From positions 1-64,000 of the forward strand of contig NZ_FNID01000011.1 in NCBI RefSeq assembly GCF_900103835.1: 64,000 bases of DNA, read 5' to 3'. Source of the stretch: Acetanaerobacterium elongatum. Lineage in GTDB: Bacteria > Bacillota > Clostridia > Oscillospirales > Ruminococcaceae. Made by a program: the position numbers and the translations under genes. Below, piece by piece: positions 2,313 to 15,014 of this stretch. Under the pieces are notes generated by a model, which did no database searches, had not been told where the DNA came from, and was given only the letters and a program-made list of their open reading frames with translations. The first letter of the stretch is position 1. The number at the start of each line of letters is the position of its first letter.

Positions 2313-3875
2313 TTATCTCACCAACCTTTCTTTCAGCGTAATGCCGCATTTGAGCTCAAACCCGATTTCCGTTCTCGAATATACATGAATCCGCTCCACA
2401 AAACGGGTAAAAAGTTCACCGTCAAAACCCTTCAGCATCATCGCCTTTGTGGCGTATTGCAATAGTTCACTGACCTCATGCAGGTTTATATTGTCGCTAT
2501 TTATGAAGCGGGATATGGATTCTTTCTGTCGCTGTATGCGCTCGGCCTCCTGCAGAAGCTCATTGTTGCTCTTATTGTAAACGGCAGGTTCAAGGTAGCC
2601 TTTTGTCATAAGACCTACCAGTACCTTCCGTTGTTCTGCGTTTTCTTCGAGTTTTTTATCAAGGTCTTTCAATTTTGATATGTTGTCTTCAGAGCTGATG
2701 CTGCGAAGGCCCCTCAGAAGAGGCTTTAAGACAATTTGATGGCCGAAGATGAGCTTATTCATCATGATAACAAATGCATACTCAATACTGGACTCGGGAA
2801 TGTACTTCATTGAGCACTTCTTGGTGTCCGTAATATGATTGGCACAGCACCATGCGATATTATGCCTGCCGGTAGAGTGGATACGGCGCTTGAATCTTCC
2901 GCCGCAATTCTCGCAGATAATTATGCCTGAAAATGGATATCGATTCTGATACTTACCCTGATATTTTTTTACGCCTTTTTCTTTGCCTCGTTGTTCAATG
3001 ATATCTTGCGCGGCATTAAAATCTTCATGGCTGATAATCGCATCATGATGATTTTTAATGAGATACTGATCTTTTTCACCGTAATTGTAGTGACGGTTGA
3101 AGTGCATATCGGTGTAGGTCTTTTGAAAAATAGCATCTCCTGTATATTTTTCATTACCGACTATTCCACGAATTGTCGTCGCCGTCCAACGGCCGCCTTT
3201 CTTGGATGGTACGTCGCGGCGATTTAGCTCATCCGCAATTTTCCCGGTGCCTTTTCCAGATAAAATTTCAGAGAAGATAAAACGTACTATTTCCGCCTGT
3301 GATTCGTTTATAACCAGTTTTCCATCAGCTGTATCGTAGCCATATGGCGGATAGGAAATCTTGAAGGTCCCATTTTGAAACCTGCGCTTAACTGACCATT
3401 TGCTGTTTTCCGCAATGGATACCGACTCACTCTCAGCCAGTCCACTCAGGATTGACAGCATGAGTTCGCTTTCCATTGACCCAGTGTTGATATTTTCTTT
3501 CTCAAAATAAATGAAAACATCAAGGTCAAGTAGCTTTCTGACCAGTTCAAGACAATCGGTTGTATTTCGAGCAAATCTGCTGATAGACTTCGTTACAATG
3601 AGGTCTATTTTTCTGTCTTCACAGTCTGCAATCATTCGAAGCAATTCAGGCCGCTTTTCCTTTTTTGTGCCGGTGATGCCCTCGTCATAATAAAGTCCGG
3701 TGAACTCCCAATCAGGATTTGCTTTGATGTAGGTTTCATAATGCTTTATTTGGGTGTCTAGACTTTCGAGTTGTTTATCGCTGTCTGTAGACACGCGGCA
3801 GTAAGCCGCAACTCGTAGCTTGGACTTCTCAGTTACATCAGCTGTGTTTTGACCTATTTTCGTAACCTTTTTCAA
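2313..3875 (-). CDS. Large serine recombinase, second full-length copy
   Basis: 520 residues. The resolvase domain (about 20-165) has YCRVSTD with Ser29 as the nucleophile and SRFARN. A recombinase domain (about 170-300) and a zinc ribbon (CENCGGRFKRR with a later C pair) follow, then a coiled coil. It is related to, but clearly diverged from, the recombinase at 322-1893, so this is not a recent duplication. The start is a TTG preceded by AAGGAGG at 7 bases, which is why it is preferred. It is the first recombinase of the trio. Which of the two catalytic proteins drives integration cannot be told from sequence alone. Confidence 0.92.
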   Translation of the reverse strand: MKKVTKIGQNTADVTEKSKLRVAAYCRVSTDSDKQLESLDTQIKHYETYIKANPDWEFTGLYYDEGITGTKKEKRPELLRMIADCEDRKIDLIVTKSISRFARNTTDCLELVRKLLDLDVFIYFEKENINTGSMESELMLSILSGLAESESVSIAENSKWSVKRRFQNGTFKISYPPYGYDTADGKLVINESQAEIVRFIFSEILSGKGTGKIADELNRRDVPSKKGGRWTATTIRGIVGNEKYTGDAIFQKTYTDMHFNRHYNYGEKDQYLIKNHHDAIISHEDFNAAQDIIEQRGKEKGVKKYQGKYQNRYPFSGIIICENCGGRFKRRIHSTGRHNIAWCCANHITDTKKCSMKYIPESSIEYAFVIMMNKLIFGHQIVLKPLLRGLRSISSEDNISKLKDLDKKLEENAEQRKVLVGLMTKGYLEPAVYNKSNNELLQEAERIQRQKESISRFINSDNINLHEVSELLQYATKAMMLKGFDGELFTRFVERIHVYSRTEIGFELKCGITLKERLVR

Positions 3876-8741: not shown

Positions 8742-11261
8742 TCAATACAAATCAATAAATCGTGTTTCGGTTGTCCCGTCCTCGTATTCAAATACTAGCT
8801 CGATACCGACCTGTCCGTTCGTTCCCTTGCTTAGGTTATTCGATCCTATTTGCGCCGATATGGTGTAGTTGCGTCTTGATGCCGGATAAACTGTTTGGGC
8901 CATACTTTTGGTCATATTCGCTACGCCAACTGCCTTAAAGGAAGCTGTACCGGACACACCGTTTTCAGTATCCACTTCAAAACCGCTATTTTGCCAATAG
9001 GCGAAGCCGTCGTCGGCTCGAGAGTTTCGCAAATGGTTAAAGGGCACCATATCTTTAATTTCCTGCCCGATGAGGTTGCTTTGGTCGAACTGGTCAGCAA
9101 TCGTCGAGGAGGAAGAGTCGCCCAGTTCTCTAAGTTTCGTGGAGAGTTCCAGTACGGTTTTCCATGGCTCTTGAAGGTTGTACTGGCGGCGTACAATTCG
9201 TGTTTTAATAGTTAGATTTAAATCCCTATCATCAACGGTTACAATGTCACCTAAATCCCATCGTTCATGCTCATAACCCGTCAGTACGGACAAATCCATC
9301 GCCGATAGGACATAGGATACGCGGGGCTTTGCATATTCGGCAAGCCGCATATTTGTAAATTCAAGCATCTGATAGGGGTTTGTAAAATTAGAACAGTCAA
9401 GGGTAGCTACCCGCACCTCGCTTGAATAGCTGAAGTCCTCCACGTAGTCCTTGCCACCATTGATTGCAGCGAACGTCATACCGTCCTTACCGATAGCATA
9501 GAGCCTCGTGACAAGGGATCGGGTATCAACTACACGCTTAATCCCAGTCAGGTTTTTACGGTAGGCAAAGAGCGCTCCACTGTCTGTTCCGCTGAATGTC
9601 AGTAAATCCACCCGTCTGTCCCTGCTGTGGAATACCAAATCGCCGCCATGGATGTTCTGTACCATTCGAAGTATGGAGAGTGCGTTTTTTTCTTGGCAGG
9701 TCCATGTTCTCAGGGTGGTTACATTTACTGTACCGACTTCCCAGCCTGTACCCGCAAGTGCAAATGCCATCGGAACAGCGGGCAGGTCAGCGTTGAATTC
9801 AACTGGTTGTTTCTCTGCAGAAAAAGTCAGGTCATAGAATGCTGCTTCCGCATAGACCATTGTGAGTATACTGTTGCCATCCGAGCCTTTTTCATCTGTC
9901 ATTGTCCGAATACGATAAACATCCTCAGCAATCTGTACCTGCTTCTCGTTGTCGAGCATTATGCGCTTCGGGTCACTGTAAGGCAACTTGAATTCCAGGG
10001 TGTCCGCTCCGTTGATCTCGCCCGTAACAATGATGTCATAAGCATTCTCCAGAACCGTTTCCCACGCTCCGTTCTCATCCAAAATAACAGGGCGCGCAAA
10101 ACCCAGTTTCTCATACGGAGATTTTGGGATATCATGAAGCGTTATATCGAGTAGCTTTGGTGTAACCGTTGTATCGCTGGTGGTGAGCGTTACCCTGTAG
10201 CGGATATATGAACGATTCGGCGAGGTCAGTTCGCCATTTGTGCCAACTGCCTGCCATGCCGACCAGTTCTGCAGATCATCTGAGGTTGATGTTTCTATCA
10301 GTGAAATGGATGTGACACCCGCGGTGTATTCACTTGTTGCAGATACTCGACCGCTCCCGGCAAGGCTGCATTCGGTGGCAATAGTCGTCAGTTGGCCGCT
10401 TTCGGGGTAGAGATTACCAATTCCCTTACGTAGGGTGACAACCCCCGGCTCAGTTAACGCATCCACGTCACCCGAAGTGTCTCCTCCATTTGCAAGCATT
10501 GCTTGACGGAAGTAGTGAATCAAGTCATCAATAGCTAAGTTGCTGTCTGTTTCAAAGAACCACTCGTCCAAGCCACCTGCGTAGTAATACTGGTTTGCGT
10601 GCATTCCCATAACGATATCCGCTATACAGGAGGGATTCAATGTACCAGTAAATGTTCGCAAAGGGGCTGTCCAAACTTCACCGTCAGCACGGTTACACAG
10701 AACTATCTGAGATGTTTTTTCTGTCACGTTTATGATTGCAGAGAGAAAATACCAACCACCATTGACCATGTTGAATCCAGGTGTTTCGGTTTGGTCAAGG
10801 ATAAGCGTTCCTGATGAATTATAGAGCATCATTCGCGGCCGCCCTTGATAGAGGGAGATATAAAAAATAGGCTGACCGGGTCCTTGCCTTGTATTGAAAA
10901 GCGGAATGTAGTTCTGCCCTACAGAATAGGTGGTCGGGTTAATCCAACCGCCGACGGCAATTTTCTCACCGATATCAGAAAAGAACGTACCATTGTTTGT
11001 GGCGACAAGGTGCGTTTTTTCTGTGGTCGGATTGTTGATGTTCATTCGGAAATACCGCCCAAACCTGCCGTTTGGTAAAGAAGCGGTTGTGCCGCTCCAA
11101 CCGGAGACCGTAAAATGCCGTCCGTTGGCGGAAGAGTCTGCAAGGTGGTTATTACTGTCCGGCGTGGATTCGTTGAAACGCCAGAGTGCTGATGTTTTTT
11201 CGGTTGCAGGAATCTCGCCCGTAAAGTCTGTTTGAGCAGTCAATATGGATTTTACCGCCAT
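8742..11261 (-). CDS. Phage tail protein (prophage endopeptidase/anti-receptor type) with LamG-like domain
   Basis: 839 residues. The first ~250 residues form a LamG/concanavalin-like lectin fold (WRFNESTPDSNNHLADSSAN, later GLDEWFFETDS). The middle, about 400-720, matches the phage minor structural / siphovirus tail-protein family (Tal or Gp18-like): DIIVTGEINGADTLEFKLP, then DSGALFAYRKNLTGIKR, then a strand-rich end. It would sit at the tail tip below the distal tail protein and bind or cut surface polymers. The ATG at 11261 has GGAGGTGAGGAC upstream; an upstream in-frame start would overlap the previous gene and is not supported. Confidence 0.8.
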   Translation of the reverse strand: MAVKSILTAQTDFTGEIPATEKTSALWRFNESTPDSNNHLADSSANGRHFTVSGWSGTTASLPNGRFGRYFRMNINNPTTEKTHLVATNNGTFFSDIGEKIAVGGWINPTTYSVGQNYIPLFNTRQGPGQPIFYISLYQGRPRMMLYNSSGTLILDQTETPGFNMVNGGWYFLSAIINVTEKTSQIVLCNRADGEVWTAPLRTFTGTLNPSCIADIVMGMHANQYYYAGGLDEWFFETDSNLAIDDLIHYFRQAMLANGGDTSGDVDALTEPGVVTLRKGIGNLYPESGQLTTIATECSLAGSGRVSATSEYTAGVTSISLIETSTSDDLQNWSAWQAVGTNGELTSPNRSYIRYRVTLTTSDTTVTPKLLDITLHDIPKSPYEKLGFARPVILDENGAWETVLENAYDIIVTGEINGADTLEFKLPYSDPKRIMLDNEKQVQIAEDVYRIRTMTDEKGSDGNSILTMVYAEAAFYDLTFSAEKQPVEFNADLPAVPMAFALAGTGWEVGTVNVTTLRTWTCQEKNALSILRMVQNIHGGDLVFHSRDRRVDLLTFSGTDSGALFAYRKNLTGIKRVVDTRSLVTRLYAIGKDGMTFAAINGGKDYVEDFSYSSEVRVATLDCSNFTNPYQMLEFTNMRLAEYAKPRVSYVLSAMDLSVLTGYEHERWDLGDIVTVDDRDLNLTIKTRIVRRQYNLQEPWKTVLELSTKLRELGDSSSSTIADQFDQSNLIGQEIKDMVPFNHLRNSRADDGFAYWQNSGFEVDTENGVSGTASFKAVGVANMTKSMAQTVYPASRRNYTISAQIGSNNLSKGTNGQVGIELVFEYEDGTTETRFIDLY

Positions 11262-11265
11262 GTCC

Positions 11266-12039
11266 TCACCTCCAACGGCTCTTCGCCTGTATTTGCAGTT
11301 CTGTAAATGTCGCACCGATTGCCGTAATGGTTAAGATATTCGTTCCTTTGCGGAGAATTGGAAAATTCAACTCTTGAAGCAGAGGTAGACCATTCCGGAG
11401 CGTTTCGCCCGTGCTGTCTACCACCTTGGCAGTAACTAAACCGCTGTCGATGACGAGGGTTTCTCCGGCGGACAAAGGCCCGACAATGCGAAGTTCTTCG
11501 TCATTCGTTTTCAATGACACATAGGTTGATGCCCCTGACGGAATGATGCCTTTCAAAAGGAAGACAGGCAATGAGTCTGTATTTCCTTTACTCCTCGTGA
11601 TTGTATTTGCACCCTCTTGGGTTAGCGTAAAACTCTCGTCCGTCAAAGCGTAGGCATGTGGGTCGGGACAGACGAAGTTCAAGTCAAATGAACCTGCCGA
11701 GCGAATAAGACGTTCACAGTTCACGGCATCCTGCAGTCTCGCTGTGAAATAGCGGTCGGGGACATCGTCAAACACAAGTTGTTTCAGCCCTTTTTTGGGA
11801 TCTAACCACTCGGCAAGGCCATCTAACACTCCAACCAGAGAAGCGAGATTGTGCATTGGAGCAACATTACAGTTCACAGTTATGATCCGCTCTGCGCTAT
11901 CACTGCCAAAGTCTGCCACACCGGGCTTGCCGGGTATGGAAACAAAGGAATTACGCAAGGGTGGCGAAGCCTGCCAAGAGGTCAGACGAGCCTTGACGTT
12001 CATGCTTTGTGATGAAATTCCGTTGAAAATAAAGCCCAT
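11266..12039 (-). CDS. Distal tail protein (Dit)
   Basis: 257 residues. The N-terminal FIFNGISSQSMNVKARLTSW and the later IPGKPGVADFGSDSAERIITVNC pattern match the Dit/phi3626 gp14-like family, which forms a hexameric hub at the end of the siphovirus tail tube. The C-terminal half (about 140-257) is a jelly-roll-like galectin module. The ATG has AAGGAGGTGTTGGC upstream. It lies between the tape measure and tail-tip genes, its usual place. Confidence 0.85.
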   Translation of the reverse strand: MGFIFNGISSQSMNVKARLTSWQASPPLRNSFVSIPGKPGVADFGSDSAERIITVNCNVAPMHNLASLVGVLDGLAEWLDPKKGLKQLVFDDVPDRYFTARLQDAVNCERLIRSAGSFDLNFVCPDPHAYALTDESFTLTQEGANTITRSKGNTDSLPVFLLKGIIPSGASTYVSLKTNDEELRIVGPLSAGETLVIDSGLVTAKVVDSTGETLRNGLPLLQELNFPILRKGTNILTITAIGATFTELQIQAKSRWR

Positions 12040-12051
12040 GCCAACACCTCC

Positions 12052-14103
12052 TTATGCCGGGCTAAACCGTCCCTGCGCCCGCGAGCCGGTCTGCATCAGA
12101 TTATAAAGTTCCTGTGATATTCTGCGGATGTCATCCTCGCTGCGGACAATCATCTGCTGTATGTTGATGAGCGAAGGCATACCTGATACCGCCAAGCCGC
12201 CATGACTTCCTGTCACATCACCCATATTTATGCCAGGCGTATCAAAAGAAGTGGGGATAGCGTTCTGCATATCTTCTGCGACTTCATCCATTGCCCGTTC
12301 GAAGCCTACACCGATACCTTGACCCATGTTCTCGCCAAGTCCGGCAAATAAGGTAGATGGAGAATGGATACCGAAGAAGTTTTTGATGCCGTCGACGATC
12401 CCTCCGAAGAAGCCGGAGATTTTACCCCAAATCCAATCGGCGACATTTGAAATACCCTGCCACAGACCCTTTATTAGGTCGCTGCCGACTTGCACGATTT
12501 TACCGATGTTACCGGTGAATCCTTTCACGATGGCGGTAATAATCTGGGGTATAGCTTTTACGATTTCCACGATGATGGTTGGCAGGTTCTTTATCAAGGA
12601 CACGAAAAGCTGGATACCCGCCGCCACAAGCTGCGGAATACTACCGATAATTGCCGTAATAAGCGACGAGATGATTTGTGGTATCGCCGCCACGATAGCT
12701 GTTATAATCTGCGGTAAATTTTGAACCAACGATACTAACAGCTGAATCCCTGCGTCAATAAGCTGTGGAATAGATCCGAGGATTGCTGTAATTAAACCCT
12801 CGATAATTTGAGGTATTGCCGCCACAATTGCTGTGATGATTTCAGGCAAGGCATCTACTAAAGACACGAGAAGTTGAATTCCAGCATCAATTGCCTGTAG
12901 TATCCCGTCGAGGGCAGGCGGCAATGCCTTTACGATATTCTCAATAACTGGAACAATGTTTTTCACGACGTTCTGGAACGCTTCGACCACATTATTAATC
13001 AAAAGTCCGACATCAGCATTGGCATTACCCAACCCTGCCATCAAGTTTCCTATAGCTGATTGCATCCCCGCCATAGAGCCAGCTATTGTTTCCGTGGCTT
13101 CCAAAGCGGTTGTTCCTGTGATCCCCATTTCGGTCTGAATGACATGGATCGCTTCCGTCAAATCGGAAAATGAAGAGAGGTCGTATTTAATGCCGGATAT
13201 TTTTTCGGCATCAGCCAAGAGTCGCTCCATTTCAGATTTTGTGCCGCCATATCCCAGCTTCAGATTGTCGAGCATAGTATAGTTTTGCTTGGCAAAACCC
13301 TGATAGGCCGTCTGAATAGCTGACAGATCCGTCCCCATTTTATTGGCATTATCCGCCATATCAGTAATCGCCATGTCCGCAACCTGCGCCGCTTTTGCAG
13401 TATCACCGCCGAGGGACTGGATAAGACTTGCCGAAAAGCCCGTGACAGTTTCCATATATTCGTTGGCGGACATACCGGCGGTCTTGAAAGCATTTTCAGC
13501 ATACTTCTGAACAGACTGCGACGCTTCACCAAAGAGTGTATCAACACCGCCGACCAGTTGTTCGTAGTCCGCATAGGCGGATATGACTTCTTTGCCAAGT
13601 TTAATGGCAGCGGCTCCGGCAGCCACAGCCACAGCGCCCATTGCCACACCAATGCCTTTTAGGATGCCGCCCAGTTTCTCGAACTTTCCACCAGACTTTT
13701 CGGCGCTGTCACCAGCGTCCTCAAGTTCCTCACCAAGGTCGTCGGCTTCTTCCGCGGATTCTTCTAATTCACGCTCCATGTTGTTAAGTTCTGCGTTGGC
13801 ATTATTGAGGGCAATCTGCCAGTTTTGAGTGCGGCGATCATTTTCACCAAAGCTTTCGGATGCATTTCGAAGAGCGGCTTCAAGGGTGGAGATTTTCTCC
13901 TTCTGGGCATCGATTGCTTTATTAAGGACTTCGTTACGGGCAGCAGTAGCCGCTATGGATTTGTCCTGTTTGTCGAATTCGCTCGTTACCAGCTTCATTT
14001 CACTACCGAGCACTTTGAATGACTGGTTTATATCACGCAATGCGTTTTTAAATTCCTTTTCGCCCTCGACGCCTATTTTTAACCCAAAATTGTCATATCC
14101 CAT
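12052..14103 (-). CDS. Tail tape measure protein
   Basis: 683 residues. A coiled-coil N-terminus (about 20-140) is followed by a phage TMP core (about 150-370, with ADMAITDMADNANKMG) and tandem amphipathic repeats (about 385-555). The repeats are copies of a ~40-residue unit with the pattern P-Q-I-I-x-A/G-L-I-T-A-I-x-G-S-I-P-Q-L-I-x-A-G-I-Q-L. The C-terminus ends in a glycine-rich HSPSTLFAGLGENMG motif. It sets tail length and reaches into the host membrane at DNA injection. Its start codon and SD lie inside one arm of a long inverted repeat (see 14087-14414), which suggests translational control. Confidence 0.92.
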   Translation of the reverse strand: MGYDNFGLKIGVEGEKEFKNALRDINQSFKVLGSEMKLVTSEFDKQDKSIAATAARNEVLNKAIDAQKEKISTLEAALRNASESFGENDRRTQNWQIALNNANAELNNMERELEESAEEADDLGEELEDAGDSAEKSGGKFEKLGGILKGIGVAMGAVAVAAGAAAIKLGKEVISAYADYEQLVGGVDTLFGEASQSVQKYAENAFKTAGMSANEYMETVTGFSASLIQSLGGDTAKAAQVADMAITDMADNANKMGTDLSAIQTAYQGFAKQNYTMLDNLKLGYGGTKSEMERLLADAEKISGIKYDLSSFSDLTEAIHVIQTEMGITGTTALEATETIAGSMAGMQSAIGNLMAGLGNANADVGLLINNVVEAFQNVVKNIVPVIENIVKALPPALDGILQAIDAGIQLLVSLVDALPEIITAIVAAIPQIIEGLITAILGSIPQLIDAGIQLLVSLVQNLPQIITAIVAAIPQIISSLITAIIGSIPQLVAAGIQLFVSLIKNLPTIIVEIVKAIPQIITAIVKGFTGNIGKIVQVGSDLIKGLWQGISNVADWIWGKISGFFGGIVDGIKNFFGIHSPSTLFAGLGENMGQGIGVGFERAMDEVAEDMQNAIPTSFDTPGINMGDVTGSHGGLAVSGMPSLINIQQMIVRSEDDIRRISQELYNLMQTGSRAQGRFSPA

Positions 14104-14414
14104 ATATATACGTATCCTCCTTCCTGCCGAGAAATGGCGTGATTTCTGTATTCTTCGGCACAGTTCCTCGGATAACTTTTACACGGGAAATGCATCGTTC
14201 ACAGCTTGGAACGAATGGTTTTATGATTTTCGACCATCGAAACATGCAAATTTAGTACTGTATAGCCTCGGTAATGATCGAAATCCCCAAAAGAGTTATC
14301 CGAGTAAACCATTCAAAAATCATTGATTTTACTAAGCCCTTTGAGAGTTAGGAGGATAACTGAATATATGGGATATGACAATTTATCTGAGTTCTCGGAT
14401 AAATCGTCAGCCAC
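14087..14414 (-). promoter_or_regulatory. Structured leader of the tape-measure gene (SD and start sequestering)
   Basis: Arms 14087-14121 and 14350-14384 are inverted repeats: 31 of 35 positions match, 21 of them perfect in a row. The downstream arm contains the tape-measure AGGAGGATA and its ATG. Inside lies an 11-bp pair (14167-14177 with 14294-14304). A third copy of its sequence at 14394-14402 could pair with 14294-14302 instead. A 33-codon ORF runs through the upstream arm. Base pairing is read directly from sequence; the regulatory role is inference. Confidence 0.6.
14313..14414 (-). CDS. Possible leader peptide before the tape-measure gene
   Basis: 33 codons from a GTG preceded by GGAGGGAGGTG. 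Codons about 11-22 encode the strand that can pair with the tape-measure SD and ATG. Ribosomes on this ORF would open that hairpin, so it could act as a translation-coupled leader. The peptide resembles no family I know. Coding status is uncertain: only the ribosome site and its placement support it. Confidence 0.4.
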   Translation of the reverse strand: MADDLSENSDKLSYPIYSVILLTLKGLSKINDF

Positions 14415-14439
14415 TTAAAACACCTCCCTCCGTAAAAAA

Positions 14440-14649
14440 TCAGATGCCATCTGGAATGACATCTTCAATAAACAGTTCGCGCTTTGGCTTGACCATTCCA
14501 AGGAACTGGCGATGGCATTCCCATAGATCCAGCAATTGTCCAATTGGGGTAAGCCACGTTTCCTCTTCGGAGCGATTTAGATGAACCGTACCGTAATATA
14601 AAAGTCGGGTAAACAACTCATTGTCGCTTACCCGACCTCGGCGTTTTTT
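14440..14649 (-). CDS. Tail assembly chaperone gpT extension made by -1 frameshift
   Basis: An open frame, -1 relative to gpG, begins at the slippery heptamer 14643-14649 (A AAA AAC on the minus strand, in the correct zero frame TCA AAA AAC). It runs to TGA at 14440. It adds about 67 residues (starting RRGRVSDNELFTRLLYYGTV) to give a gpG-T fusion of about 191 residues. In many siphoviruses, gpG and gpGT in unequal amounts chaperone the tape measure during tail assembly. The extension has no start codon of its own near the junction, which supports frameshifting. Confidence 0.8.
   Translation of the reverse strand, partial: KKRRGRVSDNELFTRLLYYGTVHLNRSEEETWLTPIGQLLDLWECHRQFLGMVKPKRELFIEDVIPDGI
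14604..14649 (-). promoter_or_regulatory. Programmed -1 frameshift site with stimulatory hairpin
   Basis: The heptamer A AAA AAC (14649 down to 14643) is followed after a 6-base spacer by a perfect 9-bp stem (14628-14636 with 14604-14612) with a 15-base loop. The stem contains the gpG stop codon. This is the standard arrangement for -1 ribosomal frameshifting. Confidence 0.8.
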
Positions 14650-15014
14650 GACTCACTATACTCGCTTTCGATGTTACGAGCCGTTCCTTTAAACATCGCC
14701 TCAGTAATTGCCGACTTATATACCGCCAGTTCAAGTGGCGAGGTGAGCAATTCCACTTCTTCCTCGGTCAGCAAATCTTTTGGTTTTTCCTTGTTGCGAA
14801 GGTTGTGGATGAGGATGGACTGGTTGGCAAGGAGCGTAATCAGCCAAATAATCTCATCCAGAGCCATCTCAAAGTTTTCTGACCTCATTAACTTCTCACC
14901 CAAGTTGTCCAGGCCGCCGTATCGTTTGGCGATTTCCTTTGTGGCGCGAGTGGACAAAATCAGCTCATATTCTTTGTCGCCGATTTTGATGACGGCGCTT
15001 CGTTCGTTATCCAT
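14628..15014 (-). CDS. Tail assembly chaperone (gpG-like)
   Basis: 128 residues, with the position (between major tail protein and tape measure), length and acidic C-terminus expected of gpG. It starts MDNERSAVIKIGDKEYELIL, a beta-rich opening seen in Firmicutes siphovirus chaperones. The ATG follows GGAGGTTTAATGC. Near its 3' end a slippery heptamer lets a fraction of ribosomes enter the gpT frame. It would keep the tape measure soluble until tail tube polymerisation. Confidence 0.8.
   Translation of the reverse strand: MDNERSAVIKIGDKEYELILSTRATKEIAKRYGGLDNLGEKLMRSENFEMALDEIIWLITLLANQSILIHNLRNKEKPKDLLTEEEVELLTSPLELAVYKSAITEAMFKGTARNIESEYSESKNAEVG

Follow-up and report, generated by a model that had tools for sequence, protein, structure and literature searches.

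A gene-less mobile element, very probably of the RIT kind, between codons 2 and 3 of a prophage tape-measure gene

The window, a 64,000-nucleotide stretch of Acetanaerobacterium elongatum DNA (contig NZ_FNID01000011.1), carries a prophage tape-measure gene, a core structural gene of tailed phages, on its minus strand (12052-14103; 683 aa; PHROG phrog_58, tail length tape measure protein, E 1.3e-100). Sequence comparison makes it very probable that codon 2 (GCT) of this gene is separated from codon 3 (GAC) by a mobile DNA element, non-autonomous and of the RIT kind. The element is 314 bp long (14095-14408, minus strand) and is one of ten complete mini-elements of a family, each of which is situated at a tape-measure start.

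The limits of the element are given by empty sites. Window flanks of 250 bases on the left and 300 bases on the right abut with a gap of 0 in Anaerocolumna aminovalerica (locus L110; 96.8 and 99.7% identity) and in a Clostridia MAG (L111; 98.8 and 98.0%), and L030 and L113 contain an identical junction at 90-92%. As the flanks abut gap-free in relatives, the insert can be placed at 14095-14408, between codons 2 and 3. The empty site of L111 reads GGAGGGAGGTGTTTTAAGTGGCTGACAATTTTGGG, and L110 has one base different there. The original SD and GTG start of the tape-measure gene (14412-14430) now opens a 33-aa leader (14313-14414); in L111 the equivalent start region continues directly into the gene. 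Exact empty sites were found for three of the 12 elements queried, the other two being L196 (against empty L095, 87.5 and 81.4%) and L216 (against empty L045, 78.7 and 77.3%). No relative with both flanks was seen among the loci compared for L195, L202, L208, L217, L236 and L220. L229 has 13 relatives with flanks and no exact junction among the best 4 of the 13, and the flank queries of L248 and L251 matched only one another. The insertion follows codon 2 in 10 of 13 elements; in L195 and L208 it is one codon earlier, after codon 1, and in L220 one codon later, after codon 3.

The element begins, on the minus strand, with a left 8-nt flank, O1 (GACGATTT, 14401-14408). In the comparison of O1 and target over 13 elements, that of the window is unlike its target, GACAATTT, and it is read as a coupling sequence brought along by the element. 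This is followed by a palindromic core (ATCC-GAGAACTC-AGAT, 14385-14400) with an 8-bp spacer (14389-14396), and by a second 8-nt flank, O2 (AAATTGTC, outward GACAATTT; 14377-14384), which is a footprint-like copy of a tape-measure target. The upstream inverted end (ATATCCCAT...GTTATCCTCCT, 14350-14376) reads outward as an SD and ATGGGATAT. The downstream inverted end (14095-14121) contains the SD AGGAGGATA (14121-14113), an ATG (14103-14101) at an SD-to-ATG spacing of 12 nt, and GGA TAT, and forms the present gene start (MGY-DNFG). Two inner motifs lie between the ends: CTCGGATAACT on the left (14294-14304), similar to a motif about 80 nt from the ends in relatives, and AGTTATCCGAG on the right (14167-14177), which is part of an inner inverted repeat.

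An earlier note on this DNA had described these features as a structured leader, and the features themselves are reproduced. The inverted arms (14087-14121 and 14350-14384) are 35 nt long and complementary at 31 of 35 positions (89%); they are 228 nt apart, close to the 230 or so given, and the tape-measure SD and ATG do lie inside the downstream arm. The 11-bp inner pairing is present within a 17-nt inverted repeat (14291-14307 and 14164-14180, 88%), the third copy of the motif extends over 12 nt (14394-14405 against 14293-14304, 92%), and the leader ORF has a GTG start with an SD. Folding of 14080-14420 (minus strand), which the note had proposed, gives -111 kcal/mol (z -7.03), with 0 of 100 shuffles as good.

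Further members of the family were found by pattern searches. The inner-motif pattern led to L195 and L196, viral contigs with a layout like that of the window, both at tape-measure starts; its matches in L253-L255, L257-L259, L268 and L283-L285 were discarded, as was L260. The end pattern GGAGGATA-N4-14-TATGGGATAT matched 45 stretches, 25 of which were judged by eye to be element ends. The 20 dropped as chance matches, with other genes, no core and no inverted partner, are L197, L198, L200, L207, L209, L211, L212, L215, L218, L219, L222, L224-L226, L228, L230, L231, L233, L235 and L237. In 19 of the 25, the reading frame continues from the element end into an N terminus like that of a tape measure (MGY-DNFG, MGY-SDFG and similar); in one (L201) the contig stops after 8 nt, and five show the other end only. 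The 25 include near-copies (L214/L223 and L221/L238/L239). PHROG matches among them cover only L196, L216 and L213 (plus the window and L167), the others being called tape-measure genes from their N-terminal sequence. The tape measure of L213 is of another family (phrog_1068, E 1.8e-12).

The ten complete minis, including the window element and those of L248 and L251 located through the core pattern, measure 313-325 bp: four of 313, four of 314, one of 323 and one of 325 bp. The middles of minis equal in length to within 1 nt are only 29-53% identical (ungapped). The two length classes are about one DNA turn apart, and the lengths cluster in helical phase (R 0.93 for all three repeats tried). 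Torsion limiting the size of small circles would account for this; with ten related elements in two classes, the pattern is only suggestive. Decayed copies (L204, L223, L263, L264 and L167) retain the SD and ATG at the gene and have lost the left arm; L263 and L264 are near-copies of L223, L167 has another ORF upstream, and L214 is called decayed solely from the likeness of its right end to L223. Of 160 tape-measure loci compared, L167 alone carries an exact ATGGGATAT where the gene begins, which marks the element as uncommon. As a DNA query, the insert gave no match against phages and just three Vibrio records against plasmids (E 1, 10% covered). It matched 49 of 297 family genomes at E up to 0.1, including its own, the others with single short matches at E 0.005 or worse, and five of six relatives' records at E up to 1, with short matches only.

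The assignment to the RIT kind comes from the large form of the element. L201, L216 and L220 carry, as a set, elements of 3546, 3547 and 3550 bp with three tandem tyrosine recombinase genes each. All three are situated at tape-measure starts and have their ends in common with the minis. L216 and L220 are complete by end pairing, and L201 was added from its own locus, where the element ends are present and the tape-measure gene itself is cut off. Each of the six proteins encoded in L201 and L216 matches Pfam Phage_integrase. In the excerpts of PMC3414803, RIT elements are given a length of about 3,500 bp and three adjacent, slightly overlapping genes that are flanked by an inverted repeat and a palindromic sequence; Mesorhizobium loti MAFF303099 is listed there as a carrier, and an experimental demonstration of RIT mobility is stated to be still absent. 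L201, L216 and L220 have the three adjacent recombinases in the order A-B-C, a length close to 3.5 kb, terminal inverted repeats and an end palindrome; the 314-bp window mini has no such trio. The A, B and C proteins of L216 are 29.6, 29.2 and 33.7% identical to those of the trio on plasmid pMLa, each being the best of three by score, narrowly so for B (68.9 against 62.0 bits). B and C overlap by 4 bp in L201 and L216, with 4-8 bp taken as the overlap of RIT genes, while A and B are 0-3 bp apart; the listed C start of L220 is far upstream.

RitA is described in the excerpts of PMC8138268 as having two successive core-binding domains. RitA of L201 has a PF02899 match at 64-122, which is below cut-off, and an XerD-model match from 156; an AlphaFold model of L216 RitA has two helical bundles at a mean pLDDT of only 46.9. 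L249 and L276 combine the core with a RitA-like ORF (41%) cut by the contig end and are excluded from the counts. A RitA-like ORF (34%) is also seen in L277. Since the window mini shares its ends with the 3.5-kb elements bearing RitA/B/C-like recombinases, and lacks the genes, it is classed as a non-autonomous RIT element.

In the window's own draft genome (97.2% complete) no RIT trio was seen, and hence no local helper. The recombinase matches there do not form a trio: contig C19 has two ORFs with another between them, C35 has two and C38 one. The window element is accordingly termed non-autonomous, and a MITE by likeness only, that name requiring a helper in the same genome. MITEs typically derive from DDE-transposase elements with target duplications. 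The likeness consists in the short length, the lack of genes and inverted ends that match those of an autonomous relative; the window family, in contrast, belongs to a tyrosine-recombinase element and has no target duplication.

The joints are laid out alike throughout the family. In all 13 complete elements the upstream end reads O1 (8 nt) - ATCC - 8-bp spacer - RGAT - O2 (8 nt, inverted) - ATATCCC, with ATCT in place of ATCC in one, and the gene-side end of the window and the other 12 is GGGATAT followed by the target. Read outward, O2 fits GAYAAYTT, TCNGAYTT or AGYGAYTT in 12 of 13, O1 in 10 and the present target in nine; the fraction of random 8-mers fitting these patterns is 0.00024. O1 equals the present target in four of the 13 and O2 likewise in four, and in L195 both are unlike it. 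The 8-mers look like early tape-measure codons (Asp-Asn-Phe or Ser-Asp-Phe) and, for O1 and O2, are read as sequences brought from earlier sites. Recombinase binding could alternatively keep them alike, and L195 fits poorly.

Both orientations of the element occur. The recombinase genes oppose the tape measure in L201 and L220 and run in the same direction in L216, and the window mini aligns with that of L196 when inverted (86.5, against -3.5 forward and -27.9 ± 5.0 shuffled). In all 13 elements the palindromic core lies on the upstream side of the gene, where a symmetric circle joint with two inverted exchange sites would put it in either orientation. In the proposed mechanism, RIT proteins of another element would act in trans on the mini, which would move as a circle with a symmetric joint (arm - 8 nt - core - 8 nt - arm). 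Either 8-nt site would exchange with a GAYAAYTTY-type site in a new gene; the carried-in 8 nt would remain upstream and the target's own 8 nt would remain with the gene. Translation would then begin at the element ATG, changing MADNFG to MGYDNFG. We infer, in this scheme, the circle intermediate, the supply of a helper and the use of the new start, and the combination of trans-acting RIT proteins, a symmetric circle and 8-nt exchange appears reasonably likely. The circle joint is absent from the 285 loci and 391 genomes searched.

A broader proposal has about even chances of being right. Phage RIT transposons would have outward translation starts for both ends and be specialised on the first tape-measure codons, so that insertion either way would be nearly silent. 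The gene-less minis would exploit these transposons, moving between tape measures as circles of about 30 or 31 DNA turns (313-314 and 323-325 bp) and preserving 8-nt records of the genes that had hosted them before.

Read outward, each of the two ends gives an SD followed by ATG GGA TAT, in frame with the gene hit at the gene-side junction. The outward SD-ATGGGATAT arrangement is present at both ends in 12 of 12 elements tested (L201 excluded), in a test that allowed single variants at the left end; the left end of L208 reads ATAGGATAT and has lost the ATG. The interrupted tape-measure gene probably stays readable through the ribosome site and start codon of the element. That decayed copies keep the SD and ATG at the gene without the left arm argues that the element ATG is the working tape-measure start. 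A ribosome site and a start codon on both ends suggest how a mobile element may avoid harming the gene that it enters.

The main reading of the earlier note was a translational switch, in which ribosomes on the leader ORF open a hairpin that hides the tape-measure start while alternative pairings compete. The fold is strong, and opening the stretch from SD to ATG is computed to cost 16-36 kcal/mol in all ten minis, compared with 4-10 at five empty sites; with the SD and ATG buried in the computed fold, lowered tape-measure translation is plausible. A switch is nevertheless unlikely, as the arms are missing from close relatives, which retain the tape-measure gene with the start that it had originally. 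There is no covariation within elements beyond shared motifs (320 pairs against 334.8 ± 15.9 shuffled in ten minis, P 0.82), and the leader reaches the arm in five of the nine minis with a recognised SD-like start. All the competing pairs repeat a single motif, GTTATCC/GGATAAC, which is present at the ends of the 3.5-kb transposons too. Arm pairing looks like a by-product of the inverted ends, because, outside the shared motifs, the two arms of an element do not pair better with each other than with those of other elements. On the computed folds, the stem may damp tape-measure translation as a side effect and need not be a regulated switch.

Group I and group II introns enter conserved phage genes with little harm, and removal of a self-splicing intron, or of a bypassing element, would here give back MADNFG. 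In the window, AAATTGTCA near the 5′ end is a 9-nt complement of the joined flanks TGACAATTT, like a group I P1/P10 pairing, and GAC is found at both junctions. An origin of this type is very improbable: no Rfam intron family was found in the window (E up to 5) or in five related loci (gathering score), the complement is O2, which equals the target in only four of 13 elements, and splicing is needless given the outward SD and ATG that decayed copies retain. As read here, the window element spares the gene by a new start, not by splicing. Replication template switching could have made an inverted duplication of the gene's own start, with no mobile element involved, and the arms do include the SD and start codon of the gene. 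This is scarcely credible for ends, core and size that are common to 10 elements, of which 3.5-kb versions bearing recombinases exist, and for empty sites that are without the SD and ATGGGATAT sequence. The inserted structured element, which the earlier note had named as its alternative, is the reading that is upheld, the arms being the inverted ends of a mobile element.

The family resembles RIT elements in its three tyrosine recombinase genes, which stand in tandem and touch or almost touch (441/324/348 aa in L216, in the order of the pMLa trio of 412/323/338 aa), and in the length of about 3.5 kb, terminal inverted repeats and end palindrome given in the excerpts of PMC3414803, PMC10214605 and PMC8138268. 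It differs from the RIT elements of those excerpts in having gene-less 314-bp minis, targets in phage tape-measure genes, an SD and ATG that face outward at the ends, empty sites that are resolved and an 8-bp spacer within the core. SE elements and Tn554 are also alike, according to the excerpts of PMC10214605, in that a short donor-derived flank moves to one side and the target's own bases stay opposite. The flank is 6 bp there as opposed to 8 nt here, the gene sets are other, and neither minis nor start-restoring ends are described in those excerpts. None of the matches listed in the open-licence literature describes RIT minis, RIT elements that target tape-measure genes or ends that restore a start codon. 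A 2023 paper, in its excerpted part, tabulates the target specificity of RIT elements, their empty sites and their movement as untested, and the present family makes all three testable. It offers exact pairs of empty and filled sites, the sequences of the joints, a target that is defined and a minimal substrate of 314 bp, with which RIT transposition could be reconstituted.

Other insertions were observed at tape-measure loci. Toxin-antitoxin-like pairs (Phd/RelE-like and AbrB/PIN-like, named by eye from translations) lie between a tail chaperone-like ORF and the tape-measure start in L008 (contig C61 of the window's own genome, 1658-3291), L204 (2186-2883) and L223 (2019-2692), and L008 carries an additional truncated tape-measure start. 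This stretch looks like an insertion hotspot. In L160, whose tape-measure gene is 99% identical to that of the window over the available part, the intruder is a different one: a group II intron match (2904-3000; Rfam RF00029, 56.6 bits) stops immediately ahead of tape-measure residue 18. The tape-measure starts of L248 and L251 are 92% alike and have different minis at one site, which suggests turnover.

A second mini family is found in L256 (about 11060-11393) and L267 (about 1390-1740; 302 bp), with GGGCGC arms and a core of similar style. The two share one flank and lie in opposite orientations, the spacer being inverted relative to the flank; they have no ATGGGATAT end, and by eye the flank is without a tape-measure start. 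On one viral contig (L213, 5324-5350, and L250, 7966-11716), a right end is fused to the tape-measure gene and a left core is 8 kb away, and, judged by eye, recombinase-like ORFs stand next to both, three at the core and two at the right end; this is either a rearrangement or a misassembly. The viral contigs L199, L205, L210, L221, L227, L232, L234, L238 and L239 stop roughly 30-160 nt inside the element, as if assembly had been broken by repeats or mixed states. In the window, a 58-aa ORF (14440-14616, phrog_10988) follows a tail protein ORF (14628-15014) in another frame, and the two look like a G/GT-type frameshift pair.
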